Of a stretch of DNA of 64,000 bases, positions 30,755-48,418 are shown in pieces; position 1 is the first letter of the stretch; the number at the start of each line of letters is the position of its first letter. Source of the DNA: Modestobacter versicolor (GTDB lineage Bacteria > Actinomycetota > Actinomycetes > Mycobacteriales > Geodermatophilaceae). A program made the translations under genes and the position numbers. The stretch is taken from assembly GCF_014195485.1 (NCBI RefSeq), contig NZ_JACIBU010000001.1, positions 992,001-1,056,000 on the forward strand, in the 5' to 3' direction. The notes under the pieces are model-generated. The model did not search any database. It saw nothing but the letters and a program-made list of their open reading frames with translations, and was not told where the DNA came from.

Positions 30755-30784
30755 GCCGACATGTCGCCAGGTCGACATGTCGGC
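30755..30784. promoter_or_regulatory. Double palindrome CGACATGTCG after kal
   Basis: The perfect 10-base palindrome CGACATGTCG occurs at 30,757-30,766 and 30,773-30,782, centres 16 bases apart. Together with flanking GC pairs the two also form a 12-base inverted repeat with a six-base loop. There is no T-tract. Either a two-site operator or a terminator hairpin for the kam operon; the internal symmetry of each copy favours an operator. Confidence 0.55.
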
Positions 30785-32951: not shown

Positions 32952-33754
32952 CCGGCCGGGCACAGCCGCTGGGCCCGGTCCTCGTCGTCGTCCCGACGTA
33001 CGACGAGGTGGCGAACCTGGGCCCGGTGCTCGACCGGCTGCACGCCGCGGTGCCCACGGCGCACGCGCTCGTGGTCGACGACAACTCCCCGGACGGCACC
33101 GGCGCCCTCGCCGACGCCCGGGCGGCCGCCGACGAGCGGGTGCACGTGCTGCACCGCACCGCCAAGGCCGGGCTGGGCCCGGCCTACGTGGCCGGCTTCA
33201 CCTGGGCCGCCGAGCACGGCTACGCGGTCGTCGTGGAGATGGACGCCGACGGCTCGCACCCACCGGAGCGGCTGCCGGCGCTGCTGGCCGCGCTCGAGGA
33301 CGCCGACCTGGTGCTCGGCTCGCGCTACGTGCCCGGCGGCGAGGTCGTCGACTGGCCGCCGCACCGGCTGGCACTGTCCCGGGCCGGGAACCTCTACACC
33401 CGCTGGGCGCTACGGCTCCCGCTGGCCGACGCCACCGGCGGCTTCCGGGCGGCGCGGATGGAGCTGGTGGCGTCGCTGCCCTTCGACGAGGTGGCCAGCC
33501 AGGGCTACTGCTTCCAGGTCGACTGGGCCTGGCGCGCGGTCCGGTCGGGGGCCCGGGTGGTCGAGGTGCCGATCGCCTTCAGCGAACGCACAGCCGGGCG
33601 GAGCAAGATGAGCGGCTCGATCGTTGGAGAGGCACTGGCACGGGTGACCTGGTGGGGAGTCCTGGACCGGCTGGCCGATCGGCTGCCCGGACGGGTGACC
33701 CGTCCCGTGCCGGGACGTGCCCGAGGTGGGTGGCGGACGAAGGTGCTCCGGTAG
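32948..33754 (+). CDS. Polyprenol monophosphomannose synthase
   Basis: 268 residues, GT2 family. VLVVVPTYDEVANL, VVDDNSPDGTG, VEMDADGSHPPE (metal-binding DxD) and TGGFRAARMELV are diagnostic of DPM1/Ppm1-type enzymes, which make polyprenyl-phosphomannose from GDP-mannose for lipomannan and protein mannosylation. No membrane anchor is present, consistent with reliance on Lnt as membrane partner. GTG 32948 overlaps the lnt stop (GTGA). Gene name ppm1 is used for the fused mycobacterial protein, so I leave the symbol empty. Confidence 0.93.
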   Translation: MTGRAQPLGPVLVVVPTYDEVANLGPVLDRLHAAVPTAHALVVDDNSPDGTGALADARAAADERVHVLHRTAKAGLGPAYVAGFTWAAEHGYAVVVEMDADGSHPPERLPALLAALEDADLVLGSRYVPGGEVVDWPPHRLALSRAGNLYTRWALRLPLADATGGFRAARMELVASLPFDEVASQGYCFQVDWAWRAVRSGARVVEVPIAFSERTAGRSKMSGSIVGEALARVTWWGVLDRLADRLPGRVTRPVPGRARGGWRTKVLR

Positions 33755-33792
33755 GGGGCACCCGCCGCCCACCGGGCGGAGGAGGAGCGCAC

Positions 33793-34314
33793 ATGGCCAC
33801 CGGCTACTCGGCGCAACGGACGTCACGCCGCCCGTCGTCGCGACTGCGGACGGCGATCGGGCTGGGAGCCCTGGCCGAGGTCGTGGTCTACGTCCTCGTC
33901 GCCTCCTGGATCGGCGTGGGCCTGACCGTGCTCGCCACGCTGGCCACCAGCGCCCTGGGCTGGGTGCTGCTGGCCCGGCAGGGCACCAAGGCCCTGGGCG
34001 AGCTGCGCCAGCGGGCGGAGGAGCACCGCGCCCCCGGGCGCGCCCTGGGCGACGCCGGGCTGATCGCGCTCGGCGGGCTGCTGATGGTGCTGCCCGGCTT
34101 CATCGGCGACCTGCTGGGCCTGCTGTGCCTGCTGCCGTTCACCCGCGCGCTGCCCCGGGCGCTGTTCGCCCGGGCCCTGGCCAACCGGCTGCCCGACGCG
34201 ATGCGCGGCCCGGTGCGGGTGCGCTCGGTGCGCACGGAGACCGTCAGCGGTCCCCAGGAGCCGTTCCGCGCCGGCCCGGCCACCCGGGTCATCGAGGGCG
34301 AGGTCGCCCCGTAG
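33793..34314 (+). CDS. FxsA family membrane protein
   Basis: 173 residues with three to four hydrophobic segments and the FxsA signature (LAEVVVYVLVASWIGVGLT, then LIALGGLLMVLPGFIGDLLGLLCLLP). E. coli FxsA blocks exclusion of phage T7 by F plasmids when overproduced; its normal role is unknown. GGAGGAG lies seven bases before ATG 33793. The C-terminal 40 residues are soluble and charged. A perfect 19-bp hairpin after the stop separates it from rbpA. Confidence 0.9.
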   Translation: MATGYSAQRTSRRPSSRLRTAIGLGALAEVVVYVLVASWIGVGLTVLATLATSALGWVLLARQGTKALGELRQRAEEHRAPGRALGDAGLIALGGLLMVLPGFIGDLLGLLCLLPFTRALPRALFARALANRLPDAMRGPVRVRSVRTETVSGPQEPFRAGPATRVIEGEVAP

Positions 34315-34326
34315 CGGACCCCGGAC

Positions 34327-34368
34327 GCACGAGAGCCCCAGCGGGCGGACCCGCTGGGGCTCTCGTGC
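34327..34368. terminator. Bidirectional terminator between fxsA and rbpA
   Basis: A perfect 19-bp stem (34,327-34,345 with 34,350-34,368) around the loop CGGA, core AGCCCCAGCGGG. Both convergent genes stop within 15 bases of it, so it can serve both strands. No T-tract. Confidence 0.85.
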
Positions 34369-34378
34369 AGTGCTGGGT

Positions 34379-34723
34379 TCAGCTGGCGCGCGTGCGCCGC
34401 CCGCGGAGCACCTCGAGGCGCTCGGCCAGGACCTCCTCGAGGTCGTCCACCGAACGGCGCTCCAGGAGCATGTCCCAGTGCGTGCGCGGCGGCTTCACCT
34501 TCTTGGGGGCCGGCTCGGCGCCACCGACGAGCTTGGCGGCCGAACCGTCGTACTTGCACTCCCACGTGTCGGGGAGCTCCGCGTCGTCGGCGAAGGGCAC
34601 CGTGACGAGGTGGCCCTGAGGGCACCGGTACTCGGCGTACTGCCGCTCGATGGGCGCGGTGTTGCGCTCGGTCTCATAGCTCACGCTGCCCAGTCGGCTT
34701 CCGCGCAGGGATCGCTCGCCCAT
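34379..34723 (-). CDS. rbpA: RNA polymerase-binding protein RbpA
   Basis: 114 residues. Begins MGERSLRGSRLGSVSYETER, contains the Cys/His zinc-like region YRCPQGHLVTVPFADDAELPDTWEC (positions 32-56) and ends with the sigma-interaction part THWDMLLERRSVDDLEEVLAERLEVL. RbpA stabilises open complexes with the housekeeping sigma factor in actinomycetes. GAGAGGA precedes ATG 34723. A long upstream gap (192 bases) with TTGACC suggests its own well-regulated promoter. M. tuberculosis has rbpA (Rv2050) next to lnt-ppm (Rv2051c), the same linkage. Confidence 0.95.
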   Translation of the reverse strand: MGERSLRGSRLGSVSYETERNTAPIERQYAEYRCPQGHLVTVPFADDAELPDTWECKYDGSAAKLVGGAEPAPKKVKPPRTHWDMLLERRSVDDLEEVLAERLEVLRGRRTRAS

Positions 34724-34915
34724 GGCACACCGTCCTCTCGTGCTGATTCGGTCAGTCCTGGATGCCCGGGCAGCCGCATGCTCACGCATCCGGTGCGGGG
34801 TGTCGCAGGGGTCAACGACAGATGAAGGAAAAAGATTTCCGCGTCGTCAGCGCTCGATCATCCCACATGATGAGAGATCGACCGGCGGCCACCCCCAGCG
34901 GGTGAGGTGCCGGCC

Positions 34916-35650
34916 TCAGCGCAGGGCGAGCTGACCCGGCCCGGTCGGCATCGGGCCGAGCTGCCCGCGGCTGTAGTGACGGCGGCACAGCACCTGGTAC
35001 CGGACGGCGTCAGCACCCTCGCCGTCGGCCGCCGCGGCGGCCTCGGGCGCCGGGGCGGTGTCGGCGACCACCACCGTGGCGCCCTCGCGCACCATCTCGC
35101 CCCCGACGACGCGGGCGTTGAGCAGCCCGCGCAGGCCGCACCAGCACAGCACCTCGACCTGGACCCGCTGGACGTCGTCGGCGAGCTCGAACAGCCGCTG
35201 GGTGCCGGGGAAGAGCCGGGTGCGGAAGTCGGTGGTGAGGCCGAAGGCGTAGACGTCGACGTGGAACTCGTCGACCAGCTCGGCCAGCTGCTCGACCTGC
35301 GCGCCGGTGAGGAACTGCGCCTCGTCCACGATCAGGTAGTCGACCCGGTGCCCAGCGGCCCAGCGGTCGCGGACCAGCAGCCGCACGTCGGTGCCGGCGT
35401 CCAGCTCGACCGCCGCGCGGCGCAGCCCCACCCGGGAGCTGATCTGCGGGCTGCCGGAGCGGTCGCCCTGGGTCAGCAGCACACCGTGCCGGCCCTGCCG
35501 GCTCTGGTTGTGGTCGACCTGCAGCGCGAGGGTGGACTTCCCGCAGTCCATCGGGCCGTGGAAGAACACCAGGTGCGCCGGCGCGGGGTGCCGGCGGCGG
35601 TCGCCCGACGCCGGGACGGAGTCGGGCGCGGTCAGGGGGGAGGGGGTCAC
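34916..35650 (-). CDS. tdk: Thymidine kinase (type II)
   Basis: 244 residues. P-loop FFHGPMDCGKSTLALQ, the DEAQF Walker B-type motif, and Cys pairs near the C-terminus (VLCWCGLRG, VLCRRHY) fit the zinc-containing type II thymidine kinase. It phosphorylates thymidine with ATP in the salvage pathway. An acidic Ala/Glu-rich insertion (about residues 205-222) lies before the last Cys. Start GTG 35650 overlaps the MFS gene stop (GTGA), so it is second in an operon. Confidence 0.9.
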   Translation of the reverse strand: MTPSPLTAPDSVPASGDRRRHPAPAHLVFFHGPMDCGKSTLALQVDHNQSRQGRHGVLLTQGDRSGSPQISSRVGLRRAAVELDAGTDVRLLVRDRWAAGHRVDYLIVDEAQFLTGAQVEQLAELVDEFHVDVYAFGLTTDFRTRLFPGTQRLFELADDVQRVQVEVLCWCGLRGLLNARVVGGEMVREGATVVVADTAPAPEAAAAADGEGADAVRYQVLCRRHYSRGQLGPMPTGPGQLALR

Positions 35651-37035
35651 AGGCGCTCCGGAGGGGTGTTGCCGGCCTCGACGATCGCCTGCCGCAGGTC
35701 GAGCTTCGCCAGCAGGACACCGCCCACGACGAAGAAGACGACCAGGCTGATGATGGCGTAGCGGTAGGAGTCGGTCAGCTGGAAGGTCAGCGCGAACAGG
35801 AACGTGCCCAGCCAGCTCGTCCCGCGGTCGGAGATCGTGTAGAAGCCGAAGTACTCGGCCTCCTTGCCGGCCGGGATCAGCTGGCTGAACAGCGACCGGG
35901 ACAGCGCCTGGGTGCCGCCGAGCACGAAGCCGATGACGACGGCGAGCAGGTAGAACTGCACGGCGGCACCGGCGGTGAGGAAGCACGCCGCCACCAGGAC
36001 GCCGACCCAGACCACCAGCGAGCCGAGCACGGTGCGCTTGGCGCCGGCGGACTCGGCGACCCGGCCCATCGCCCGGGCACCGACGAAGGCGACCACCTGG
36101 ACCAGCAGGATGGCCGACACCAGGGTGGTCTGGGACAGGTCCAGCTCCTCGGAGCCGAACTGCGCCGACACGGTGATCACCGTCTGGACGCCGTCGTTGA
36201 ACAGCAGGTAGGCGCCGAGGAACCACAGCGTCAGCCGGTACTGGCGCATGTCGCGCAGGGTGGCGCGCAGCTGGCGGGTCGAGGTGCGCAGCGCCTGCCC
36301 GGTGGTGGGCACGACGACGCCGTCGCCCGGCCGGCGGTTGCGCAGCAGCGCGATGCTGACCACGGCGAACGCCGCCCACCACACCCCGGCCGAGGACAGG
36401 CAGATGCGCACCGCCTCGGACTCGGTGACCCCCAGCTGCTCGTACTGGGTGTAGAGCACCAGGTTGGCCGCCAGCAGCAGCGCGCCACCGAGGTAGCCCA
36501 GCGCCCAGCCCCGGCTGGAGACCGCATCCCGCTCGTCGGGGCCGGCCAGGTCGGGCAGCCAGGAGTAGTAGACGACGGTGGCCGCGCCGAAGGCGATGTT
36601 GGCCACGATGAACAACCCGGAGCCCAGCAGGTAGCCGTCGCCGGCCAGGAAGAACAGCGCCATGGTGCACAGCGACCCGACGAGGGTGAAGGCGGCCAGC
36701 AGCTGCCGCTTGCGCCCCGAGCTGTCGGCGACCGCGCCGGCGACCGGCAGCACGATCACCTGCAGCACCACCGACAGCGACACGACGTACCCGAACAGGC
36801 TGCCCGGCGGGATGCTGATGCCCAGCGGGTGGATCCGGCCGTCGGCGTCGGCGGCCGCCTCGGCCACCGAGGTCAGGTACGGCGCCAGGAAGACGCTGAT
36901 GACCGTGGTGTTGAAGGCCGACATCGCCCAGTCGTAGGAGTACCAGCCGAGCCGTTCCCGGCGCAGTGCCGGGTCGGCGGCGGCCGGCGGGGACGTCGGG
37001 GACGTCGCCCCGGCGGGGGCAGCGTGGTCGGTCAC
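35647..37035 (-). CDS. UMF1/Atg22-type major facilitator transporter
   Basis: 462 residues with about 12 hydrophobic segments. The N-terminal WYSYDWAMSAFNTTVISVFLAPYL and the DSSGRKRQLL loop are typical of the Atg22-like UMF1 family. The yeast relative exports amino acids from the vacuole; bacterial substrates are unknown. First gene of an operon with tdk. The N-terminal 25 residues are Pro/Ala-rich and probably disordered. Confidence 0.88.
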   Translation of the reverse strand: MTDHAAPAGATSPTSPPAAADPALRRERLGWYSYDWAMSAFNTTVISVFLAPYLTSVAEAAADADGRIHPLGISIPPGSLFGYVVSLSVVLQVIVLPVAGAVADSSGRKRQLLAAFTLVGSLCTMALFFLAGDGYLLGSGLFIVANIAFGAATVVYYSWLPDLAGPDERDAVSSRGWALGYLGGALLLAANLVLYTQYEQLGVTESEAVRICLSSAGVWWAAFAVVSIALLRNRRPGDGVVVPTTGQALRTSTRQLRATLRDMRQYRLTLWFLGAYLLFNDGVQTVITVSAQFGSEELDLSQTTLVSAILLVQVVAFVGARAMGRVAESAGAKRTVLGSLVVWVGVLVAACFLTAGAAVQFYLLAVVIGFVLGGTQALSRSLFSQLIPAGKEAEYFGFYTISDRGTSWLGTFLFALTFQLTDSYRYAIISLVVFFVVGGVLLAKLDLRQAIVEAGNTPPERL

Positions 37036-37081
37036 GGGCGGAGGGTGCCAGCCGGGCGGGGCCGGGTCCAGCAGGAGGTGG

Positions 37082-37963
37082 TCACGGGATGTCGTCCGGG
37101 ACGACGCCGCCCGGGAAGGCGGCGACCGCGGTGGCCGGGCGGGTGGCGTCGGGGAAGGCGATCCGGTCGGCCGGCTCCCCGGCCCGCAGCGGCGCCAGCC
37201 CGCGGGTCAGCGCGGCGGCGATCCGGGTGCGGGCCCGGTGGGCGTCGCCGAGCCGGCCGGGCGCCAGGTCCTCGAAGAACACCGGTGGTCCCAGGTGCAC
37301 CCGCAGCGCGGGCCGCCGCCGGACGGCGCTGAGCAGGGTGCGCACCTTCCCCCAGTCGGTGCGGTACTGCAGCACCTCGTGGGCGCCCCACTGGCTGACC
37401 GGCACCACCGGGACGCCGGCGGCCAGCGCCATCCGGGCCAACCCGGTGCGGCCGCGCTCAGGCCAGCCGTCCGGGGTCAGCCCGATCCGGCCCTCCGGGT
37501 AGGCGACGACGTGCCCGCCGTGGGCCAGCGCCACCTGGGTGACCCGCAGCGCATGCGGGGCCAGGTCGGTGCCGCGCTCCACCCGGATGCCGCCGCAGCG
37601 CTCCAGCAGCGGGCCGACGACCGGGACGGTCATGATCCCGCTCTTGACCAGGAACCGCGGCCGCACCCCGGCGCGGTGCAGCGCGACGCCGATCACGAAG
37701 GTGTCGAAGTCGCCGATGTGGTTGACCGCCAGCAGCAGGGGCCCCTCGCGCAGCTTCGGCGGGATGCTGCCGGTGACCTCGATGCGGCCGAAGACGCCCG
37801 GCACCCAGCCGAACCAGCGGAGCACGAACCCCCAGAACCACCAGTGCGGCGCCGCGGCGATGGCCAGCTCGCGGGCGAACCAGTCGGGGTCACCGGGCTG
37901 CAGCTGGTCGGCGAGCCCGGGTGGCAGCGGGGGAGCGGGCGGCCGCCAGTCGCGCAGCGTCAT
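37082..37963 (-). CDS. Lysophospholipid acyltransferase (PlsC-like)
   Basis: 293 residues. NHIGDFD is the His-x4-Asp catalytic motif, and YPEGRIGLTPDG the motif III equivalent. N-terminal residues 40-60 (WWFWGFVLRWFGWVPGVFG) form a hydrophobic anchor. Probably acylates a lysophospholipid or phosphoglycolipid. ATG 37963 overlaps the upstream GDPD stop (ATGA), so phospholipid degradation and reacylation genes are coupled, which fits phospholipid turnover. Confidence 0.88.
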   Translation of the reverse strand: MTLRDWRPPAPPLPPGLADQLQPGDPDWFARELAIAAAPHWWFWGFVLRWFGWVPGVFGRIEVTGSIPPKLREGPLLLAVNHIGDFDTFVIGVALHRAGVRPRFLVKSGIMTVPVVGPLLERCGGIRVERGTDLAPHALRVTQVALAHGGHVVAYPEGRIGLTPDGWPERGRTGLARMALAAGVPVVPVSQWGAHEVLQYRTDWGKVRTLLSAVRRRPALRVHLGPPVFFEDLAPGRLGDAHRARTRIAAALTRGLAPLRAGEPADRIAFPDATRPATAVAAFPGGVVPDDIP

Positions 37964-38736
37964 GCGCCGGTCCACTGACCCCGGGAGACGAGCAGGTCGC
38001 GGAGCATGGACGGGCGGTCGGTCATCACGCCGTCGACGCCCAGGTCGAGCATCTCGGTGGCCGCGGCCTCGGTGTCGACGGTCCAGACGTGCACCTGCAG
38101 GCTGCGGGCGTGGGCCGCGTCGATGAACCGCTCGTCGACCAGCGGCCGGCCACCGAGCTGCAGCGGTACCTGCGCGCAACCGGCCTGGATGCGCACCAGC
38201 CCGGCCGCGCGCGGCGAGTAGGAGGACAGCCGCAGCGCCGCGACCCCCCGCGGGCCCAGCGAGGTGCAGACGTCGGGGCCGAACAACCGGCGGGCGGCCG
38301 CGATCCGGGCGTCGGAGAACGAGCCGAGGCAGATCCGGTCCTCCACCTGCAGCCGGCGCACCAGCCGCACCAGCGGCGCGAGGACGCCGGCGGCCTTGAT
38401 GTCGAGGTTGAACCGGACGTCGGGCCAGGCGCCGAGCAGGTCCTCCAGCCGCATGATCGGCTCGCGGCCGCCGATCAGCGCCGTCCGCACCTCCCGCCAG
38501 GGCAGCGACTCGACCCGGCCGCTGCGGTCGGTGACCCGGTCCAGCGTCGGGTCGTGGAAGACCACCAGCTCGCCGTCGACGGTGACCCGGACGTCGGTCT
38601 CCAGGTAGCGGTAGCCCAGCGCCACGCACGCCTCGAACGCCGGCATGGTGTTCTCCAGGTGCTCGATGGCGCCCCCGCGGTGCGCCATCGCCACCGGGGT
38701 CGGCCCGTCGAGGAAGGCGTAGCGCGGGCCCGGCAC
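37960..38736 (-). CDS. Glycerophosphodiester phosphodiesterase
   Basis: 258 residues. MAHRGGAIEHLENTMPAFE and YLETDVRVTVDGELVVFHDPTLDRVTDRSG (residues 18-36 and 44-73) hold the His, Arg, Glu, Asp and His of the GDPD active site. It hydrolyses glycerophosphodiesters to sn-glycerol 3-phosphate and an alcohol with a divalent metal. No signal peptide, so cytoplasmic. TAGCGT (reverse strand, plus 38,743-38,748) is six bases before GTG 38736, a leaderless start. Confidence 0.92.
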   Translation of the reverse strand: MPGPRYAFLDGPTPVAMAHRGGAIEHLENTMPAFEACVALGYRYLETDVRVTVDGELVVFHDPTLDRVTDRSGRVESLPWREVRTALIGGREPIMRLEDLLGAWPDVRFNLDIKAAGVLAPLVRLVRRLQVEDRICLGSFSDARIAAARRLFGPDVCTSLGPRGVAALRLSSYSPRAAGLVRIQAGCAQVPLQLGGRPLVDERFIDAAHARSLQVHVWTVDTEAAATEMLDLGVDGVMTDRPSMLRDLLVSRGQWTGA

Positions 38737-38822
38737 GCCTCCACGCTAGTGCCGTGGTCGGACGGCGTGTCGGGGGGTTCCGGACGGCGGTGGTCGGCGG
38801 CCGCTGGCGTGTCCGGCCGGGA

Positions 38823-38845
38823 CTGTCAGCAGGGGCGTCTACCGT
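38823..38845 (+). promoter_or_regulatory. PafBC-like promoter, relaxed match
   Basis: CTGTCAGCA (38,823-38,831), eight bases, then TACCGT (38,840-38,845), seven bases before GTG 38853. The mycobacterial PafBC-type promoter is TTGTCRGTG-N8-TANNNT; six of nine positions of the first element match and spacing is exact. Assignment to PafBC is inference. Confidence 0.4.
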
Positions 38846-38852
38846 CGCTGGC

Positions 38853-39296
38853 GTGGCGGTGGACCGGGCTGAGCAGCAGGCCGAGCGCAGGGCCGAGCAT
38901 CCGGCCGAGCACGGGCTGCGCGCCCGGCCGGCCCCGCGGAAGCGGCGTGCCGACGGCGAGGAACGGCGCTGCGGCTGGTGCCGCAGCGTGCTGCCCGCCC
39001 AGGAGTCCGTGGGCCGGCCGCGGCTGTACTGCGGCCAGGCCTGCCGGCAGCGGGCCTACGAGCAGCGGTCGGCGACGGCGAAGGCGGGGTTGTCCGCCGA
39101 CGTCGTCCTGGTCACCCGGGCCGAGCTCGACGGCCTGCAGGACCGGCTGTTCCAGCTGCGCTGCGCGATCGAGGATGTGCAGACCCTGCTGACCGAGAAG
39201 CCGACCAAGGCCGAGCTCGAGCGGTCGCTCGCCGAGCTGGTCCGGTCGACGGGCCGGCTGGACCGGCTGTGGCTGAACGGCAAGACACCCGGCTGA
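38853..39296 (+). CDS. Small Cys-rich protein with coiled-coil tail
   Basis: 147 residues. After a charged, repetitive start (AEQQAERRAEHPAEH) come two Cys pairs, RRCGWC and LYCGQACRQRAYEQR, resembling a short zinc finger of the kind found in actinobacterial DNA-binding proteins. A Leu/Glu-rich helical region (about 85-140) is likely coiled coil. Function unknown. TACCGT is seven bases before GTG 38853, giving a leaderless start, and a relaxed PafBC-type motif lies further upstream. It is the last gene on the + strand before dif. Confidence 0.8.
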   Translation: MAVDRAEQQAERRAEHPAEHGLRARPAPRKRRADGEERRCGWCRSVLPAQESVGRPRLYCGQACRQRAYEQRSATAKAGLSADVVLVTRAELDGLQDRLFQLRCAIEDVQTLLTEKPTKAELERSLAELVRSTGRLDRLWLNGKTPG

Positions 39297-39383
39297 TCGC
39301 CTCGATACCGTCACTGTGACGGTGATCACCCGGGGGAGCGAGCACCACAGGGGAGGGGCACCCGGAGCACCCCTCCCCGCGGG

Positions 39384-39635
39384 TCAGTTGTTGTCGCCGT
39401 CCTCGTTGTTGTCCCGGTCCTCGTTGCCGGTGGTGTTGCGGTCGTCGTTGTCCGGCAGGTTGCCCTGCGAGGTGCCGCCGGGGTTCGCGCCGGAGGTGTT
39501 GGTGCCGTCGTCGTCGGTCGTACCGTCGTTGCGCTCCTGACCGCCGCCGGCCGGGCTGCAGGCGGTCAGCGAAGCCGGTCCGCCGACCAGGGCCAGTGCG
39601 ATGAAGATGCCAGCGACCGGGCGTCGGATGTTCAT
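39384..39635 (-). CDS. Small Asp/Asn-rich putative lipoprotein
   Basis: 83 residues. N-terminal signal (MNIRRPVAGIFIALALVGG) with a lipobox-like LTAC at residues 23-26, then a tail dominated by Asp, Asn, Gly and Thr (NDGTTDDDGTNTSG, and ending DRDNNEDGDNN). No folded domain is evident. TAGGGT (reverse strand, plus 39,642-39,647) is six bases before ATG 39635, which supports expression. Such acidic tails may bind calcium or act as a wall spacer; this is a guess. Confidence 0.7.
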   Translation of the reverse strand: MNIRRPVAGIFIALALVGGPASLTACSPAGGGQERNDGTTDDDGTNTSGANPGGTSQGNLPDNDDRNTTGNEDRDNNEDGDNN

Positions 39636-40073
39636 GGCTCGACCCTACGAAGGGATCCGCCCGGCCGCCCGTCGGAACGGCCGAACCTGGTTGATTTCGT
39701 CAGAGTGACGTATCGAGGCGGGTGCGGCGAGACCGGGGGACCGAGGGGTGGACGGCGTCCGACCCATCGACGGGCAGCACAGGGGCGCACGGGCCATGCC
39801 GGTGGGCGGAGCCGGTCACGATCACCATGGCGGGGGAGTTGATCATGGGGATCGAGGCCGGCGAGCATGATCGACATCATCGGAACGGCCGAGCCGGGAC
39901 GACGTCGACCCGGCGGCCTGGTGCGCGCACGAACGGTGTCGGAGGCGGGACTAGGCCGGCCGGCGTCCGGAGACCGCCCGGCAGTCGACGACGGCGTCCC
40001 GACCGGCTCACGAGCACGCATCGGCGGACGACGAGATCAGCTGACGGATCAGCCCCTTCCGGCCCGCAGGCTG
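39636..40073. other. Gene-free stretch flanking dif
   Basis: 438 bases with the lipoprotein -10 at one end and dif at the other. Open frames are Arg-rich and unconvincing. It includes ATGATCGACATCAT (39,867-39,880), similar to the core of dif (12 of 14) but lacking the flanking arms. Nothing else is recognised. Confidence 0.5.
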
Positions 40074-40101
40074 TCCGCCGATAATCGACATTATGTCAAG
40101 T
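40074..40101 (+). other. dif: dif site (XerCD chromosome dimer resolution site)
   Basis: 28 bases organised as an 11-base arm TCCGCCGATAA, a six-base centre TCGACA and an 11-base arm TTATGTCAAGT. The E. coli dif has the same plan (arms ending ATAA and starting TTATGT), and TTATGTCAAGT resembles the XerD arm of actinobacterial dif sites as I remember them. It is intergenic and lies exactly where the strand bias of GGGGGAG reverses. XerC and XerD genes are not in the window. Confidence 0.88.
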
Positions 40102-40119
40102 AGTGCAGAGCGGAGTGGT

Positions 40120-40512
40120 TCAGGACCCGCTGCCCCGGAGTCCGTCGACCAGCCGCTTCGCCGTTGTCAGGCTCAGCCTCGGGTCGGCCCTCCGCAGCGC
40201 CGCGATCAACGCCACCGGGTCGCCGGCCGGATCGACGCGGTGCTCGGCGGCGAGGGCCCGCAACCGCTCCGGTGACCACTCGGTCACCGCGACAGCCTCC
40301 CGCTGGTCCCGCTCCCGGACCGCGCCCGGACGGCTGCGGCGCAACCCGATCAGGCCGCCGACCGCCACGAGGCGACCCAGCAGGGCCCAGTACCAGCTCC
40401 CGGTGACCAGCGCCGCCACCAGCACGACTGCGCCGGCGACGGTCCAGCCGGCCTCCAGCCACCAGGTCAGCGCAGGACGCTCGTTCCGTCGTCCCCCCGC
40501 GGTCGACGTCAT
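40120..40512 (-). CDS. Membrane protein with ribosomal L7/L12-like C-terminal domain
   Basis: 130 residues. One or two N-terminal membrane segments (WTVAGAVVLVAALVTGSWYWALLGRLVAVGG, residues 23-53) are followed by a basic linker and a C-terminal DPVALIAALRRADPRLSLTTAKRLVDGL segment (97-124) resembling the C-terminal domain of ribosomal protein L7/L12 (AL...V.DGL pattern). Such domains occur fused to membrane segments in actinomycetes with unknown role. The stop is 18 bases from dif. A TACGTT and GGTGAGGG precede ATG 40512. Confidence 0.75.
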   Translation of the reverse strand: MTSTAGGRRNERPALTWWLEAGWTVAGAVVLVAALVTGSWYWALLGRLVAVGGLIGLRRSRPGAVRERDQREAVAVTEWSPERLRALAAEHRVDPAGDPVALIAALRRADPRLSLTTAKRLVDGLRGSGS

Positions 40513-40599
40513 CGGTCCCTCACCGGTTGCGGGTCCACTCGACCAACGTATCGCCCGTTCCCGCTCACCCGGTGAACGCGACGTCGGATGCCGGCTCGC

Positions 40600-41046
40600 T
40601 CAGTGCCAGTCGCTGACCTGCACGTCCCGCGGCGCGGGCGCGCCACGACCCGTCTCGACCAGCGACTTCAGGCTGAGCAGGAACGTCGCCCACTTGGTGC
40701 TGCAGTGGTGCATGAACTCCACCGGCTCGCGCCAGCCCGCGTGGGTGAACAGCACGACCGTCCAGTCGCCGTCCTGGCGCAGCTCCCAGTCGACCGTCGT
40801 CCCCACCCACTCCGCCGGGCCGTCGACGACCCGCCAGGTCACCCGCTTGCCCGGCGTCGCCTCGAGCACCTCCATGTCGAAGCCGCCGACCGGCGGGAAC
40901 CGGAACTCCAGGACGGCGCCCACCTCGGTGCTCCCCCGGACCTCGGCGGTCCACCAGCCGACCAGGCCCTCGACCGTCGTCAGCGCCTCGTACACGCGCT
41001 CCGGCGTCGGGGTCCGGACCCCGACCCGGTGCAGGACGTCCACCAT
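40600..41046 (-). CDS. SRPBCC/AHSA1-domain protein
   Basis: 148 residues. Hydrophobic-cavity START/AHSA1-type fold, recognised by TPERVYEALTTVEGLVGWWT, GAVLEFRFPPVGGFDMEVLE and a C-terminal FLLSLKSLVETG. These proteins bind hydrophobic ligands and are often encoded beside an ArsR regulator. AGGAGGAG precedes ATG 41046. Two ArsR-like inverted repeats lie just upstream (41,064-41,128), but no ArsR gene is adjacent. Confidence 0.88.
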   Translation of the reverse strand: MVDVLHRVGVRTPTPERVYEALTTVEGLVGWWTAEVRGSTEVGAVLEFRFPPVGGFDMEVLEATPGKRVTWRVVDGPAEWVGTTVDWELRQDGDWTVVLFTHAGWREPVEFMHHCSTKWATFLLSLKSLVETGRGAPAPRDVQVSDWH

Positions 41047-41063
41047 CTCGCTCCTCCTGACTC

Positions 41064-41128
41064 GTGCAACCCTTGGTTGCACAGAAGGTTAGCCACGCGG
41101 AACCAATATGTGCAACCCCTGGTTGCGC
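41064..41128. promoter_or_regulatory. Twin ArsR-like operators upstream of the SRPBCC gene
   Basis: GTGCAACC-CTT-GGTTGCAC (41,064-41,082) is a perfect inverted repeat; GTGCAACC-CCT-GGTTGCGC (41,110-41,128) has one mismatch. Centres are 46 bases apart. The gene start is at 41,046, so the nearer site begins 18 bases upstream of it. The repeat type suits a winged-helix dimer. Confidence 0.7.
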
Positions 41129-41142
41129 ATGGCAGGAACCGC

Positions 41143-41526
41143 TCACCCGTCGTCGCGCACCAGGCAGAACGGGTGCCCGGCCGGGTCGAGCAGCACCCGG
41201 ACGTCCGGCTGCGGCTGGTGGTCGGCGAGCATGGCGCCCAGCGCCACCGCGTCCTCGACGGCGGAGTCCAGGTCACCGACCTGGAAGTCCAGGTGCACCA
41301 TCGGCCGCTGCTCTCCCGCCACCGGCGGCCACACCGGCGGCCGGTAGTCGTCCGCCTGCTGGAACACGACGAACACCGAGCCCTCCGGAGCGGCCAGGAC
41401 CGTCGTCCCCGGCTCCTCGTGACCGATCGGCCAGTCCAGCAGCTGGGCGTAGAAGCGGGCGAGCGCGCCGGGGTCGGGCGCCTCGATCGCCGCTCCCCAC
41501 CACATGCCCGTCGTCCGGGATCGCAT
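41143..41526 (-). CDS. VOC-family (glyoxalase/bleomycin resistance-like) protein
   Basis: 127 residues from ATG 41526; ATG 41505 is an alternative. Two beta-alpha-beta-beta-beta modules are suggested by GMWWGAAIEAPDPGALARFYAQLL and MVHLDFQVGDLDSAVEDAVALGA, ending in VRVLLDPAGHPFCLV with typical VOC spacing. Metal ligands are incomplete, so it may bind rather than turn over its ligand. Single gene, divergent from the DinB/pentapeptide gene. Confidence 0.85.
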   Translation of the reverse strand: MRSRTTGMWWGAAIEAPDPGALARFYAQLLDWPIGHEEPGTTVLAAPEGSVFVVFQQADDYRPPVWPPVAGEQRPMVHLDFQVGDLDSAVEDAVALGAMLADHQPQPDVRVLLDPAGHPFCLVRDDG

Positions 41527-41621
41527 GCCGAGCAGCCTGCTGGTCGCGACCGGCCCGCGTCCACGGCGCCGGGGTGTCCTCCGGACGCGCACTGTCCGGA
41601 TGGCCCGTTACGGTCCGCGCC

Positions 41622-42371
41622 ATGGCCGAGTTCGCCGACGCCGACCTGCGCGGCTCCCGCTTCTCCCGCGTCGACCTCTCGGGCAGCCGGTTCGCCGAGG
41701 TGGTGCTCACCGGCGCGGTGCTCCGCGGCGTCGAGCTCGTCGACGTCGAGATCGACGGGTACCTGCAGCACCTGGTCGTGAACGGGGTGGACGTCGTCCC
41801 GCTGGTCGAGGCGGAGCTCGACCGCCGGGACCCCGACCGGGCGCTGCTGCGCCCCACCGACCCGGCCGGCTTCCGCGCGGCCTGGGACGTCGTCGAGCGC
41901 CGGTGGGCGGCCACGGTCGAGCGGGCCCGCCGGCTCGACCCCGCGCAGCTGCACGAGTCGGTGGACGGCGAGTGGTCGTTCGTCGAGACCCTGCGGCACC
42001 TGGTGTACGCCACCGACGCCTGGGTGCGGCGAGCCGTGCAGGGCGACCCCGCGCCGTGGCACCCGTGGGGCCTGCCGGCGGACGGCCTGCCCGGCGACCC
42101 GGGCGCCTCCCGCGACCCGGCGGTCCGGCCGTCGCTGGACGAGGTGCTCGCCGTGCGGCGGGAGCGGATGGCCGGCGTCCGCGCGCTCGTCGACGGCCTG
42201 ACCGCGGAGTCGCTGGCCGCGGACACCGAGCCGGTGGCCGCCTCGGGGGGCTGGCCGCCGCCGGTCAGCCACCGGGTCGCCGACTGCCTGCGGGTGGTGC
42301 TGGACGAGGAGTGGGAGCACCGGCGGTTCGCCGAGCGCGACCTGACCGTGCTGGAGTCGCGTCCGCAGTGA
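41622..42371 (+). CDS. Pentapeptide-repeat/DinB-like fusion protein
   Basis: 249 residues. Residues 1-45 contain pentapeptide-type repeats (ADLRGSRFSRVDLSGSRF), and residues 80-245 resemble a DinB four-helix metal-binding domain with His in VETLRHLVYATDAWV and HRVADCLRVVLDEEWEHRRF. TACGGT is seven bases before ATG 41622, and CTGTCCGGA-N8-TACGGT resembles a PafBC promoter at five of nine fixed positions. The GTGA overlap with the following ABC exporter gene suggests an operon. DinB-type enzymes often use low-molecular-weight thiols. Confidence 0.82.
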   Translation: MAEFADADLRGSRFSRVDLSGSRFAEVVLTGAVLRGVELVDVEIDGYLQHLVVNGVDVVPLVEAELDRRDPDRALLRPTDPAGFRAAWDVVERRWAATVERARRLDPAQLHESVDGEWSFVETLRHLVYATDAWVRRAVQGDPAPWHPWGLPADGLPGDPGASRDPAVRPSLDEVLAVRRERMAGVRALVDGLTAESLAADTEPVAASGGWPPPVSHRVADCLRVVLDEEWEHRRFAERDLTVLESRPQ

Positions 42372-45300
42372 CCAGGAGCCCCTCCTCCCCTGGGTTCGAC
42401 CCGATGACCGCCGAACGAGGGCCTGGCGACGAGCGGCCGAGCTGGCTGCGCCGGCTCTGGGGCTACGCCCGCCGGCACCCGGGCGTCGTCGCCGCTGCCG
42501 CCGCCGCGGCGCTCGCCGGTGCGCTGCTGCCCGCCGGGGTGCCGTTGCTCGTCCGCCACGTGCTCGACACCCTGGTGGCCGACCCGGGCAGCGACGTCCG
42601 GCCCTGGCTGGGCGTGCTGCTGGCCGTGGCGGTGGCCCAGTACGGCGTCAGCTGGGCCGGGCGCTACAGCTCCGCCCGGCTGGGCTTCGGCATCCAGCAC
42701 GACGTGCGCACCGACCTGTTCGCGGCGCTCACCCGGCTGGACGGGCGCGGCCAGGACCGGCTGGACACCGGGCAGGTGGTGAGCCGGTCGGTCACCGACC
42801 TGGCCGTCCTCGGCGGGGTGCTGGTGTTCGCCCCGGCGGTCGCGTCGGGCCTCGTGCTGTTCGGCCTCTCGCTGGCCGTGATGCTGGTGCTCTCCCCGCT
42901 GCTCACCCTGGTCACGGTGAGCGTCGCGCCGGCGCTGTGGTGGCTGTCCCGGCGCACCGCGCGCGACCTCTTCCCGGCCAACTGGGACGCCTCCCAGCGG
43001 GCCGGTGAGCTGGTCGGGCACGTGGACGCCGCGGTGGCCGGCGTCCGGGTCGTCAAGGGCTTCGGCCAGGAGGAGCGGGAGCTCGACGGGCTGGACCGGC
43101 AGGCGCGGCGGCTGTACGCCAGCCGGTTGCGGGCCGTCCGGCTGCAGTCGCGCTACGGGCCGGCGCTGGCCGCCGTCCCGATGCTCGGGCAGGTCGGGGT
43201 CCTGCTGCTCGGCGGCCTGCTGGCCCTCGACGGGCAGATCACCCTGGGCACCCTGCTCGCCTTCGCCACCTACCTGTTCCAGCTGGTCGCCGCCACGCAG
43301 ATGCTCTCCGAGATGCTGGTGGTCGGCCCGCAGGCCAGGGCCGGGCTGGAGCGGATCGGCGAGCTGCTGGACGCCCCCGCCGGCGTGCAGGACGCCGAGG
43401 ACGCCGTCGACCTGCCCGGCGGACCGCTCGCGGTCGAGTTCGACGACGTCTCGTTCGGCCACGGCGGCCGGCCGGTGCTCGCCGGGTTCAGCCTGACCAT
43501 CGCGCCCGGCGAGACGGTCGCCGTCGTCGGCGCCTCCGGCTCGGGCAAGTCGACGCTCGTGCAGCTGCTCGGCCGCTGGTACTCCCCCGACGCCGGCGCG
43601 GTGCGGGTGGGCGGCATCGACGTCCGCCGGCTCCGGTCGGCCGGCCTGCGGGGCAGCACCGGCACCGTCTTCGAGGAGAGCGTGCTCTTCTCCGACACGG
43701 TGGCGGCGAACATCGCCCACGCCCACCCCGACGCCGACCGCACCGAGGTGACCGCGGCCGCCACGCTGGCCGAGGCCGACGGTTTCGTCACGGCCCTGCC
43801 CGACGGCTACGACACCGTCGTGGGCGAGCGCGGGCTCACCCTCTCCGGCGGGCAGCGGCAGCGGCTGGCCATCGCCCGGGCGGTGCTGGGCGGCCCGCGG
43901 CTGCTGGTGCTCGACGACGCCACCTCCGCGGTCGACCCGCGGGTCGAGGCGCGGATCGTCGGGCGGCTGCGCGACGCCCCCGCCCGGACGACGCTGCTCA
44001 TCGCGCACCGCCGCTTCACGCTGCAGCTGGCCGACCGGGTGGTCGTGCTGGCCGGCGGCCGGGTGGCCGCCGTGGGCACGCTCGCGGAGCTGGAGGCCAC
44101 CAGCCCGGAGTTCCGCCGGCTCTTCTCCCCCACCGACGACGACGCGCAGGTCAGCAGCCACGCCCGGACGGCGCTCGCCGCCACCACGGCGAGCGCGTTC
44201 CGCTCGCCGCTGATGGGCGGCCAGGCTCCACCGCAGGGCGTGGGCGTGTCCGGGAGCATCGCCGGGGCAGCGGTGGCCGACCCCGAGCTGCTCGCCCGGG
44301 TCGCTGCCCTTCCCCCGGCCACCGGCGACCCGGAGATCTCCCCCGACCTGGCCCGCTCCCCCGACCCGGGGTTCTCCCTGGCGCGGCTGGTCCGCCCGGT
44401 GCGCCGCTGGCTGCTCGTCGGGCTGCTGCTGGTCGGGCTGGACGCCGCTGCCCGGCTGGTGCTCCCCGCGCTGGTGCGCAGCGGCGTGGACTCCGGGGTG
44501 ACGGCCGGCTCGTCCGCCGTCCTGCTGGCCGTCAGCGCCGCCGGGCTGGCGCTGGTGCTCGCCGACTGGCTGGTCGCCGCCGCCTCGGAGCGGGTGAGCG
44601 GGCGCACCGGTGAGCGGCTGCTGTACCTGCTGCGGGTGAAGACCTTCGCCCACCTGCAGCGGCTGGGGCTCGACCACTACGAGCGCGAGCCCGCCGGCCG
44701 GACCATGACCCGGATGACCACCGACGTCGACGCGCTGTCGGCGTTCCTGCGCACCGGCCTCAGCACCCTGGTGGTCAGCGTGCTGACGGTGCTCGGCGTG
44801 CTGCTGGCCCTGGTGCTGCTGGACGCCTCGCTGGCGCTCGTCGTGCTCGCGGTGCTCCCGCTGCTGCTGGTGGCCACGGTCGTCTTCCGGCGCACCACCG
44901 TGCCGCTGTACGCCGAGGCCCGGGACCGGGTCAGCGGCCTCAACGCGACGCTGCAGGAGACCGTCGCCGGGCTGCGGGTCGTGCAGGCCGACGTCCGGGA
45001 GGAGCACGACCGCCGGCGCTTCACCCGGCAGTCCGCCGAGCACCTGGCCTCCCGGCTCCGCGCCCAGCGGCACATGGCCACCTACTTCCCGCTGGTCGTG
45101 CTGGTCAGCGACGTCGCCGCGGTCGTCGTCCTCGGGCTCGGCGCCTCCGGGCTCCGCGACGGCACGCTGACCGCCGGCGTCCTGATCGCCTTCTTCCTCT
45201 ACCTCGACGCCCTGCTCGGGCCGGTGCAGCAGCTGTCCCAGGTGTTCGACGGCTACCAGCAGGCGTCGATCGGGCTGACCCGGCTGCGGGAGCTGCTGCG

Positions 45301-46111
45301 CACGGCGACGAGCACCCCGCAGCCGGCGCACCCGGTGCCGGTCGGGCGGCTGCGCGGCGAGATCAGCCTGGAGGGCGTCGCCTTCGGCTACGGCGGTGCC
45401 CACGACGTCCTCGCCGGCCTGGACCTGCACGTCCCGGCCGGGCAGACCGTCGCGATCGTCGGGGAGACCGGCGCGGGCAAGTCGACCGTGGTGAAGCTGG
45501 TGGCCCGGTTCTACGACCCGGCCCGGGGCACCGTGCGGGTCGACGGGCACGACGTGCGGACCCTCGACCTGGGCGGGTACCGCCGCCGGCTGGGGCTGGT
45601 GCCCCAGGAGCCCTACCTGGGCGCGGGCACGGTCGCCGAGGCGATCGCCTACGGCCGCCCGGAGGCGACCCCGGCCGAGGTCGAGGCGGCAGCCCGCGCG
45701 GTGGGGGCGCACGACGCGCTCGCCGCGCTGCCCGCCGGCTACGCCACCCAGGTCGGCGAGCGCGGCCGCAACCTGTCCGCCGGGCAGCGCCAGCTCGTCG
45801 CGCTGGCCCGGGCCGAGCTGGTCGAGCCCGACGTGCTGCTCCTCGACGAGGCGACCGCTGCGCTGGACCTCGCCAGCGAGGCCGTCGTGGCACGGGCGAC
45901 CGCGCAGCTCACCCGCCGCCGGACGACGCTGGTCATCGCCCACCGGCTCAGCACCGCCGCCCGCGCCGACCGGGTGCTGGTGCTCGACGGCGGGCGGGTC
46001 GTCGAGGACGGCACCCACGCCGACCTGCTCGCCGCCGGCGGGAGCTACGCCGAGCTGTGGGCCTCCTACGCCGACCGGCCGATCGAGAACGCCCCGCGCC
46101 CGAGCGGCTGA
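42368..46111 (+). CDS. Fused two-half ABC exporter (heterodimer-type, Rv0194-like)
   Basis: 1,247 residues: two full transmembrane plus nucleotide-binding halves in one chain. NBD1 has Walker A GASGSGKST (388-396), signature LSGGQ (492-496) and Walker B LLVLDD with Asp517 where the catalytic Glu normally is. NBD2 has Walker A GETGAGKST (1032-1040), signature LSAGQ, and Walker B LLLDE with Glu1161. So one ATP site is catalytically degenerate, as in heterodimeric exporters of the TM287/288 type. Substrate is unknown, perhaps drugs or lipids. M. tuberculosis Rv0194 has the same fused layout. GTG 42368 overlaps the previous gene; ATG 42404 is an alternative. Confidence 0.92.
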   Translation: MTRSPSSPGFDPMTAERGPGDERPSWLRRLWGYARRHPGVVAAAAAAALAGALLPAGVPLLVRHVLDTLVADPGSDVRPWLGVLLAVAVAQYGVSWAGRYSSARLGFGIQHDVRTDLFAALTRLDGRGQDRLDTGQVVSRSVTDLAVLGGVLVFAPAVASGLVLFGLSLAVMLVLSPLLTLVTVSVAPALWWLSRRTARDLFPANWDASQRAGELVGHVDAAVAGVRVVKGFGQEERELDGLDRQARRLYASRLRAVRLQSRYGPALAAVPMLGQVGVLLLGGLLALDGQITLGTLLAFATYLFQLVAATQMLSEMLVVGPQARAGLERIGELLDAPAGVQDAEDAVDLPGGPLAVEFDDVSFGHGGRPVLAGFSLTIAPGETVAVVGASGSGKSTLVQLLGRWYSPDAGAVRVGGIDVRRLRSAGLRGSTGTVFEESVLFSDTVAANIAHAHPDADRTEVTAAATLAEADGFVTALPDGYDTVVGERGLTLSGGQRQRLAIARAVLGGPRLLVLDDATSAVDPRVEARIVGRLRDAPARTTLLIAHRRFTLQLADRVVVLAGGRVAAVGTLAELEATSPEFRRLFSPTDDDAQVSSHARTALAATTASAFRSPLMGGQAPPQGVGVSGSIAGAAVADPELLARVAALPPATGDPEISPDLARSPDPGFSLARLVRPVRRWLLVGLLLVGLDAAARLVLPALVRSGVDSGVTAGSSAVLLAVSAAGLALVLADWLVAAASERVSGRTGERLLYLLRVKTFAHLQRLGLDHYEREPAGRTMTRMTTDVDALSAFLRTGLSTLVVSVLTVLGVLLALVLLDASLALVVLAVLPLLLVATVVFRRTTVPLYAEARDRVSGLNATLQETVAGLRVVQADVREEHDRRRFTRQSAEHLASRLRAQRHMATYFPLVVLVSDVAAVVVLGLGASGLRDGTLTAGVLIAFFLYLDALLGPVQQLSQVFDGYQQASIGLTRLRELLRTATSTPQPAHPVPVGRLRGEISLEGVAFGYGGAHDVLAGLDLHVPAGQTVAIVGETGAGKSTVVKLVARFYDPARGTVRVDGHDVRTLDLGGYRRRLGLVPQEPYLGAGTVAEAIAYGRPEATPAEVEAAARAVGAHDALAALPAGYATQVGERGRNLSAGQRQLVALARAELVEPDVLLLDEATAALDLASEAVVARATAQLTRRRTTLVIAHRLSTAARADRVLVLDGGRVVEDGTHADLLAAGGSYAELWASYADRPIENAPRPSG

Positions 46112-46113
46112 CC

Positions 46114-46140
46114 GATGAGTCCGCCGTCCGGCGCCGGTCT
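46114..46140 (+). promoter_or_regulatory. Bipartite promoter-like motif GATGAGTC-N15-GTCT
   Basis: GATGAGTC (46,114-46,121), 15 bases, GTCT (46,137-46,140), then 34 bases to GTG 46174. It has the same spacing as the motif before the reductase at 13,651. Likely an alternative-sigma promoter. Confidence 0.5.
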
Positions 46141-46173
46141 CCACCAGCAGTGCCCACCGACCGGAGGTCCCCC

Positions 46174-46533
46174 GTGCCCAGCACCGTCCAGCCCGTGATC
46201 GTCAGCCGCGACCTCGAGCGGCTGGCCGGCTTCTACCGGTCCCTGCTCGGTGCCGTGGAGACCGAGCGCGTCCCCGCCGAGGGGCCCACCTTCTTCGTCG
46301 GCCTGCGGATCGGCGACTCCGACCTCGGCGTGGTCTCCGACGGCGACGTCCCGGACGGCCCGCAGCGGATGCTGCTCAGCGTCGAGGTCCCCGACGTCGA
46401 CGCGCTCCTCCCCCGGGTCACCGAGCTCGGCGGGCGCGTCTCCGGGCCGGCGAACGACATGCCGTGGGGCCAGCGGGTCGCCCACGTGCAGGACCCCGAC
46501 GGCAACACCGTCAACCTCACCCAGCAGCTCTGA
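46174..46533 (+). CDS. VOC-family protein
   Basis: 119 residues. FYRSLLGAVETERVP, MLLSVEVPDVDALLPRVTELGG and VAHVQDPDGNTVNLTQ show the paired modules of the vicinal oxygen chelate superfamily. CGGAGG lies six bases before GTG 46174. A bipartite motif like that upstream of the RibD-C reductase precedes it, which suggests a shared stress control. Substrate unknown; such proteins cover glyoxalases, dioxygenases and antibiotic-binding proteins. Confidence 0.87.
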   Translation: MPSTVQPVIVSRDLERLAGFYRSLLGAVETERVPAEGPTFFVGLRIGDSDLGVVSDGDVPDGPQRMLLSVEVPDVDALLPRVTELGGRVSGPANDMPWGQRVAHVQDPDGNTVNLTQQL

Positions 46534-46575
46534 CCCGCCGCCCGGGAGGCCGGGCGGCGGGTCGGAGCCGGGGGC

Positions 46576-47361
46576 TCAGGCGATCTCGGACCGCTGGATC
46601 CGGACCCACCCGATGGCCATCGGCAGCACGATCCACACCACGGCGGAGGTGGCCAGCTGCACCCAGCCCTGGCCGTCGAGCTCACCCTCGAACATCGGCT
46701 GGGAGGTGGTGCCCAGGTCCAGCCAGTCGCGCACCCAGTCCAGCGCGCTGACCAGGTTCACCACGATGGTGAACACGGTCGGGAGCACGAAGTACAGGAC
46801 GATCGCCAGCGGCGAGCTGAGCAGCAGCATGCCGAACGCGACCCCGGAGAGCACGAACAGCACCTGCACGAGCAGCACCTGCCCGGCCTGGGCGCCGGAC
46901 AGCGACCAGTCCATCGCCTGGTCGGTGACGACCGGGGTCAGCACCGTGGCCAGCACCGTGGCCGCCACCGTGGCGAGCACCCCGAGCACGCCGAGCACCG
47001 AGGCCGCCAGCACCTTGGCGGTGAGCACCCGGGACCGCCGGGGCACCAGGGTGAACGTGGTCATCGCGGTGCGCTGCGACCACTCGCTGGTGACCAGCAG
47101 GATGCCGAGCACCGGCAGCAGGATGGCGACCGGGAGCTGGGTGAAGGAGAAGTAGTCGGGGAACGTCTTGGGCGCGTCCTCGACGAACAGCGAGATCGCG
47201 ACGACGGCCAGCGCCGCCAGCCCGATGGTGACCAGCAGCCACTTCCCGGCCCGGGTGTCGTAGGACTTGCGCAGCTCCACCCGGACCAGCGTGGGCAGGC
47301 TCGGCGGGGTCGGCTCCGGCAGCGTGCGGGGCCGGCCGGCGTCCAGGGTCGCGGCGCTCAT
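46576..47361 (-). CDS. ABC-2 type transporter permease
   Basis: 261 residues with about six membrane helices in the ABC-2 pattern: a cytoplasmic start (LVRVELRKSYDTRAGKWLL), then VLGILLVTSEWSQRTAMTTF, the family-typical substrate-side loop. Works with the ATPase encoded immediately upstream (ATGA overlap at 47,358-47,361). The gene pair is divergent from a histidine kinase/response regulator pair, which suggests regulation of an exporter by an envelope signal. Confidence 0.88.
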   Translation of the reverse strand: MSAATLDAGRPRTLPEPTPPSLPTLVRVELRKSYDTRAGKWLLVTIGLAALAVVAISLFVEDAPKTFPDYFSFTQLPVAILLPVLGILLVTSEWSQRTAMTTFTLVPRRSRVLTAKVLAASVLGVLGVLATVAATVLATVLTPVVTDQAMDWSLSGAQAGQVLLVQVLFVLSGVAFGMLLLSSPLAIVLYFVLPTVFTIVVNLVSALDWVRDWLDLGTTSQPMFEGELDGQGWVQLATSAVVWIVLPMAIGWVRIQRSEIA

Positions 47362-48269
47362 GCCAGCACCTCCTCGACCTGCTGGCCGGCGCCGGCGTGA
47401 CCGGTGAGCGACCGGAAGAGCCCTTCCAGGCCCTCTCCCCCGGCGGGGCGCAGCTCGGTCAGCACGACGCCGGCCGCGGCCACCGCCTGGCCGACCGCGA
47501 GCGCGTCGGCGTCGGCGAGGAGCGCGTCCTCCGGCCCCGGGCTCACCGCGATCCCGGCCGCCTGCAGCGCCCTGTCCAGCAGTGCCCGGTCGGGGCCGCG
47601 CACCAGGGTGCCCTTGCCGGCGAGCAGCTCGTCCTTGCTCCCCTGCGCCACGATCCGGCCGCCGGAGATGACCACCAGCTGGTCGGCCACCGCCTCGATC
47701 TCGTGCAGCAGGTGCGAGGAGAGCAGCACCGTGCCACCGCGGTCGGCGAACCCGCGCAGCAGGCCGCGCATCCAGAAGATGCCCTCGGGGTCCAGCCCGT
47801 TGGCCGGCTCGTCGAGCACCAGCACCTGCGGGTCGCCCAGCAGGGCGGTGGCCAGGCCGAGCCGCTGGCGCATGCCCAGCGAGTAGTTGCCCAGCCGCTT
47901 GCCGGCCGGCCGTCCCGCCAGGCCGACCCGGCCCAGCACCTCGTCCACCCGCTCCGGGCCGACGCCGAGCACCATCGCGGACAGGCTGAGCACCTCCCGG
48001 CCGGTGCGGCCGGCGTGCTGGGCGCCCGCGTCGAGCAGCACGCCCACCTGGCGGCCGGCGTTGGGGAGGTCGGCGTACCGGCGGCCGGCGATGGTGGCCG
48101 TGCCGCTGGTGGGGGTGGCGAGGCCGACCAGGGACCGCAGCGTCGTGGACTTGCCCGCGCCGTTGGGGCCGAGGAAGCCGGTGACCGTGCCCGGCTGGCA
48201 GCTGAAGGAGACGTCGGAGACGGCGACCTGCGCGCCGTACCGTTTGGTCAGGTGATCGATCGTGATCAT
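47358..48269 (-). CDS. ABC transporter ATP-binding protein
   Basis: 303 residues. Walker A GPNGAGKST, signature in NYSLGMRQRLGLA, Walker B VLVLDEPANGLDP and the switch His in LLSSHLLHE. A C-terminal extension (about 215-303) is rich in Ala and Glu and resembles the regulatory part of daunorubicin-type ATPases. It supplies energy to the ABC-2 permease encoded next. ATG 48269 lies 149 bases from the divergent kinase start. Confidence 0.9.
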   Translation of the reverse strand: MITIDHLTKRYGAQVAVSDVSFSCQPGTVTGFLGPNGAGKSTTLRSLVGLATPTSGTATIAGRRYADLPNAGRQVGVLLDAGAQHAGRTGREVLSLSAMVLGVGPERVDEVLGRVGLAGRPAGKRLGNYSLGMRQRLGLATALLGDPQVLVLDEPANGLDPEGIFWMRGLLRGFADRGGTVLLSSHLLHEIEAVADQLVVISGGRIVAQGSKDELLAGKGTLVRGPDRALLDRALQAAGIAVSPGPEDALLADADALAVGQAVAAAGVVLTELRPAGGEGLEGLFRSLTGHAGAGQQVEEVLA

Positions 48270-48418
48270 GGTGCAGAGCCTGGCCGGGCCGGGTGGCTGC
48301 GCGCATCGGCCGGGAGTAGGACATCCGCGGGGCCGGCAGGCCGGAAGACGCTCCCCACCCGGGTGGAGGTAGACCTTCGTCGGTTCCGGTGGACCGGCCG
48401 GGCTCGTAGCCTCCGACT

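Follow-up and report, generated by a model that had tools for sequence, protein, structure and literature searches.

The question raised by this locus is whether an AT-rich 28-mer in the window, by which we mean the whole stretch of 64,000 nucleotides analysed here, is the chromosomal dif site recombined by XerC and XerD, and whether the window therefore spans the replication terminus, as an earlier note had claimed.

Sequence and uniqueness of the site

The 28-mer TCCGCCGATAATCGACATTATGTCAAGT is located at 40074..40101 on the + strand and is read as TCCGCCGATAA-TCGACA-TTATGTCAAGT, that is, two arms of 11 bp (40074..40084 and 40091..40101, both +) around a 6-bp central region, TCGACA (40085..40090, +), in agreement with the dif plan published for the phylum. 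By analogy with the E. coli dif, which we take as the model, the first arm is presumed to be the XerC side and the second the XerD side. The dif of Frankia alni is given as CACGCCGATAATGCACATTATGTCAAGT in the available part of PMC3025954; counted by eye, 24 of its 28 bases are identical to those of the Modestobacter site. According to the same partial text, it is also 28 bp long and near the terminus; CGCCGATAAT..ACATTATGTCAAGT is common to both sites, which differ in two bases of the centre and in the outermost pair of the XerC-side arm. A dif of 28 bp near the terminus is likewise published for Corynebacterium aurimucosum, as far as the accessible portion of PMC2830990 goes. The actinobacterial XerCD dif plan advanced in the earlier note is thereby confirmed at these exact positions. 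The site is also intergenic, as had been stated, between ORFs at 39384-39635 (-) and 40120-40512 (-).

A genome-wide search (4,593,513 bases; contigs C1 and C2) allowing up to three mismatches for this or any better dif match elsewhere returned the 28-mer once, at C1:1032074-1032101, and its reversed control gave 0 matches at the same threshold. The 22-base core likewise has a single match in the window at up to three mismatches.

Conservation in relatives

Relatives were searched with the 22-base core CGATAATNNACATTATGTCAAG, up to three mismatches being allowed. Of 59 genomes, the one with the window among them, 57 contained a single match and two (G045 and G055) contained 0, the reversed control pattern matching once in the same set, in G054. 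Among the family genomes (own included), it was present in 108 of 112, once in 107 and twice in one, four having none, and the reversed control gave 0 matches in these 112. The genome with two copies, G090, is a fragmented assembly in which the second copy is at a contig edge. Across 22 Modestobacter sequences, the mean column identity was 97% for the site against 48% and 50% for the flanks. Within the XerC-side arm, the outermost two bases are conserved at 68% and 64%, the next two at 95% and the rest at 100%, and the XerD-side arm is identical throughout (100%) in these sequences, its few changes being found in more distant relatives. The most variable positions of the core among relatives are 40086-40087, the second and third central bases.

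On the basis of its sequence, its uniqueness, its conservation against divergent flanks, its position, the convergence of motifs around it and the presence of the genes, the 28-mer is almost certainly the chromosomal dif site of a Modestobacter-type actinobacterium. The example is clean but ordinary, a dif of this kind being already described in Corynebacterium.

Some observations concern the surroundings of the site in relatives. A diverged dif with three mismatches, CGATAAGACACGTTATGACAAG, was seen at G024:C1:4488261-4488282 (L236), with GGGGGAG directed towards it 12:0. The word CCCCTCT occurs within the left 100 bp of dif at 8 of 21 Modestobacter loci, where 0.2 would be expected. The accessory-motif search found CTCCCCG in the right flank at 14 of 115 loci (1.0 expected); on the left side, the named loci gave no motif that passed.

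Position of the terminus and recombination machinery

The dnaA gene lies at C1:3182682 and dif at C1:1032074, 2.15 Mb apart for a half genome of 2.30 Mb, thus roughly opposite, the contigs (4,101,612 and 491,901 bases) being assumed to make one circle. GC skew was dropped as a terminus locator, being too weak in this genome (+0.006 on the left arm and -0.004 on the right arm in the sampled stretches), and because it is nearly zero on both arms, the switch in GGGGGAG polarity was used instead. The word terminus accordingly designates here the GGGGGAG polarity switch roughly opposite dnaA, not the meeting point of the forks, and the available part of PMC3025954 argues that replication termination need not happen at dif. 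With this meaning the claim that the window spans the terminus holds, the switch containing dif. On the origin side, GGGGGAG flips at approximately 3.26-3.28 Mb (G000:C1 about 3260001-3280000), 80-100 kb from dnaA. Near this flip the patterns used revealed no cluster of DnaA boxes (one TT[AG]TCCACA match in 72 sampled genome stretches), and no parS-like match was found in these 72 stretches or over 262 loci.

Concerning the machinery, XerD is found at C1:1091691, over the NCBIfam cut-off (339.6 vs 329.6 bits), and an FtsK gamma domain at C2:93773, over the curated cut-off. The best family of the protein at C2:160073 is XerC, with 288.6 bits, below the curated cut-off of 335.15. The PDB chains matched by the FtsK gamma domain, which we take to be those of Pseudomonas, read GYNRAARMIE where the Modestobacter domain has GFAKAGRLMD, a stretch that is presumably the DNA-reading segment.

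GGGGGAG polarity in the genome

The reversal of GGGGGAG strand bias reported in the earlier note is real. The left-flank array (968..39838, +) has 26 copies on the + strand, towards dif, and 1 on the - strand, and the right-flank array (40931..63489, -) has 23 on the - strand, also towards dif, and 1 on the + strand. The best-fitting breakpoint, 39840-40930, accounts for 49 of the 51 copies, and dif lies inside it; the corresponding switch interval, 39832..40937 (no strand), runs from the last inward + copy at 39832 to the first inward - copy at 40931. The array around this dif is unusually clean.

The same pattern extends to the genome, where 60 stretches of 20 kb showed a GC skew of about zero and a strong strand bias of GGGGGAG with a flip at dif. 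When all 7-mers were scanned over 1.084 Mb, made up of the window and 51 stretches that exclude the seven on C2 and two close to the origin, GGGGGAG was the top polarised word, with 371 copies towards dif and 29 away. The seven C2 stretches carry 0 copies on the + strand and 35 on the - strand, which fits C2 being turned round. Copies are densest in the 20 kb next to dif (0.90-1.05 per kb), against 0.31-0.44 per kb at 20-400 kb and 0.30 beyond. The E. coli KOPS GGGNAGGG was also considered as the polar motif of this genome and was rejected for its weak polarity, 137 copies towards dif vs 88 away.

GGGGGAG at other dif loci

The motif was then counted around at least 120 dif loci, which were selected by an exact match to the dif core and whose names cover at least 37 genera; two names are doubtful among the 120 loci listed (L068 'Bacillus' and L094 'Proteobacteria'). 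At these 120 listed loci GGGGGAG was again the top 7-mer, 457 copies being directed towards dif and 5 away; 112 loci lean towards dif and 0 away, 7 are without a copy and 1 is equal. Near dif, the counts were 49:1 at 21 Modestobacter loci and 64:0 at six other loci of the family, some of the Modestobacter and family loci used for the polarity and neighbour-gene comparisons coming from the same genomes (e.g., L013 and L235). Among the 21 single-base changes of GGGGGAG at the 120 listed loci, a fraction of 0.88 was reached only by AGGGGAG (182:8), GGGAGAG (129:17) and GGGGGAC (107:15).

With so near-absolute a polarity at the 120 listed loci, GGGGGAG stands out as the candidate motif by which FtsK would be oriented in the phylum. 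Alternatively, the convergence could be unrelated to FtsK, a by-product either of mutational bias between the strands or of the ribosome-binding sites of leading-strand genes, G-rich motifs following the leading strand in many bacteria. Such an origin would account for the polarity of related words at the 120 listed loci, partial for the reorderings GGGGAGG (173:33) and GGGGGGA (49:8) and weak for GGGNAGGG (145:60), and for the density, which showed no clear gradient towards dif within 8 kb there (0.33-0.69 per kb). It fits poorly with a GC skew near zero, with the roughly threefold rise in density that this genome shows in the 20 kb next to dif, and with the nearest ORF being on the - strand on either side of dif. 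Moreover, the other words made of six G and one A were weak (15:9 for one, GAGGGGG 69:47, GGAGGGG 112:57, GGGAGGG 109:50), as was the ribosome-site-like GGAGGAG (109:77), the four named words being far below 457:5. We therefore regard a by-product as unlikely and retain GGGGGAG as the candidate orienting motif.

Related motifs are known. In the parts of PMC2830990 and PMC3350403 available, the architecture imparting sequences of C. aurimucosum and C. resistens are given as G(A/T/C)GGGGGA and (T/C)GGGGGAG; they contain GGGGGA or GGGGGAG, are strand-biased like the Modestobacter motif (856 vs 61 in C. aurimucosum) and served to place dif. Unlike in these reports, the genome considered here is almost without GC skew, and the motif was measured around at least 120 dif loci. 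The E. coli KOPS is likewise polar, G-rich, directed towards dif and denser near it, whereas its sequence differs from GGGGGAG (PMC13342612 and PMC5357621, both in part). In the accessible portions of a 2025 paper on C. glutamicum FtsK and of a 2026 mycobacterial one, KOPS are presented either generally or on the basis of E. coli. In the literature searched we found no experiment on whether FtsK binds GGGGGAG; Hendrickson and Lawrence 2006/2007 and Nolivos 2012 may discuss this motif.

Neighbouring genes

The left neighbour of dif is a small lipoprotein-like ORF of 83 aa (39384..39635, -), with a lipobox-like start recognised by eye, and similar ORFs occur in many Geodermatophilaceae dif loci. 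The right neighbour (40120..40512, -) is a small membrane-protein-like ORF of 130 aa with a hydrophobic stretch, also seen by eye, for which no similar ORF was found in the relatives' dif loci searched. The lipoprotein and membrane descriptions given earlier to these neighbours thus stand by eye, but the label 'L7/L12-like' is without a family match, the best Pfam match of the 130-aa ORF being DUF4191 with an E-value of 0.08, below the cut-off.

A more constant neighbour is orf180 (38754..39296, +), which encodes a small zinc-ribbon-like protein, by its motif judged by eye, with CxxC...YCxxxC, QRAYE and then a further conserved tail; no Pfam or NCBIfam family was over the cut-off. Strong matches, all with E below 1e-29 (the following one was at 2e-10), were obtained in 39 of the 59 genomes, own included; those without one are 3 of the 35 from the family and 17 of the 24 from the order. 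As orf180 is missing from some genomes, dif does not need it in general. In 37 genomes orf180 and dif are on the same contig, and orf180 is always on the XerC side and reads towards dif (by eye). Thirty-one of these genomes belong to the family and have orf180 within about 3.5 kb of dif, most Geodermatophilaceae loci seen having it at 0.5-1.2 kb; in the other six the distances are 1.6, 8.5, 15.5, 20.7, 21.9 and 140 kb. The gene was also found in all five named Corynebacterium loci, 777-823 bp from dif, and five other window genes tested were not found in those 8-kb loci (E <= 1e-5). The place and direction of orf180 beside dif are thus kept from Geodermatophilaceae to Corynebacterium (the window plus L034, L057, L099, L129 and L136).

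The simplest reading of this linkage is shared ancestry of gene order. Any role of orf180 at dif is a guess: that it was kept beside dif as far as Corynebacterium as a dedicated terminus factor, either a MatP-like organiser or an accessory of FtsK/XerCD, appears doubtful to us.

Plasmids and virus-labelled contigs

A plasmid search with a 32-base query matched 80 records, and 13 large actinobacterial plasmids, taken from the best 30 of the 80, were analysed, the place of the dif-like site being that given by BLAST for all 13. Taken singly, these sites have weak E-values (2e-2 to 9). Around them (L238-L250), 72 GGGGGAG copies are directed towards the site and 6 away, a value of 72 that none of 2000 trials with random breakpoints attained (mean 56, maximum 71). 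Eleven of the 13 plasmids lean clearly towards the site, L242 does so partly (7:3) and L248 is contrary (0:1); a linear record of 716 kb (L240) is among them. This convergence around plasmid dif-like sites may be new. The resolution of plasmid and megaplasmid dimers is treated for Enterobacteriaceae in PMC11724359, where KOPS are often mentioned.

The 21-base dif core was also found on nine virus-labelled contigs, in one copy each. The exact core is present in L148 at 1327-1347 (-), in L153 at 1324-1344 (-) and in L154 at 2477-2497 (+), about 1.3 kb from the record end. In L148 and L153 an ORF looking like a tyrosine recombinase adjoins the core, and the ORF on the other side is UvrA-like by eye; the best family of the L148 recombinase ORF is XerC (166 bits, below the cut-off). 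These three contigs possibly represent a dif-using or self-resolving element.

Such contigs raise the idea that the Modestobacter 28-mer itself belongs to a phage or plasmid that integrated here and copies dif, either as its attachment site or as a remnant, an idea to which the nine contigs with the core, and the recombinase-like ORF alongside it in L148 and L153, lend some support. The single copy of the 28-mer in the genome and its vertical conservation already speak against it: the same site adjoins orf180 in family genomes, and, of the five matches to the phage-integrase domain that the genome contains, none is closer to dif than XerD, at a distance of 60 kb. Five dif-neighbouring ORFs were covered by the family searches. 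We thus consider an integrated element very improbable at this locus. It is less probable still, to the point of being negligible, that the 28-mer has no relation to Xer and is an AT-rich intergenic element, regulatory or due to chance. Its composition (57% AT amid a region of about 75% GC) would be in line with such an element, but 100 dinucleotide shuffles of the window gave no match to the 22-base core and the site occurs once per genome in nearly all genomes searched, so that this reading is refuted by the conservation data. The 28-mer is consequently retained as the chromosomal dif site.

Proposed mechanism and significance

The following sequence of events may be proposed, in which the loading on GGGGGAG, the binding of XerCD and the reaction itself are inferred from the E. 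coli system. After homologous recombination had produced a dimeric chromosome, FtsK, located at the septum, would be loaded onto the GGGGGAG motifs, which point to dif on both arms, and would translocate DNA until both copies of dif came together. XerD would then be switched on by the FtsK gamma domain, and XerD and XerC together would cut and rejoin the arms around TCGACA, thereby resolving the dimer.

The likely terminus is thus fixed in a GC-rich genome whose GC skew is too weak to be used, and dif together with the convergence of GGGGGAG can locate termini in actinobacterial assemblies. The presence of orf180 beside dif from Modestobacter to Corynebacterium may be new, and the plasmid data suggest that this pathway also serves some of the large plasmids of actinobacteria.
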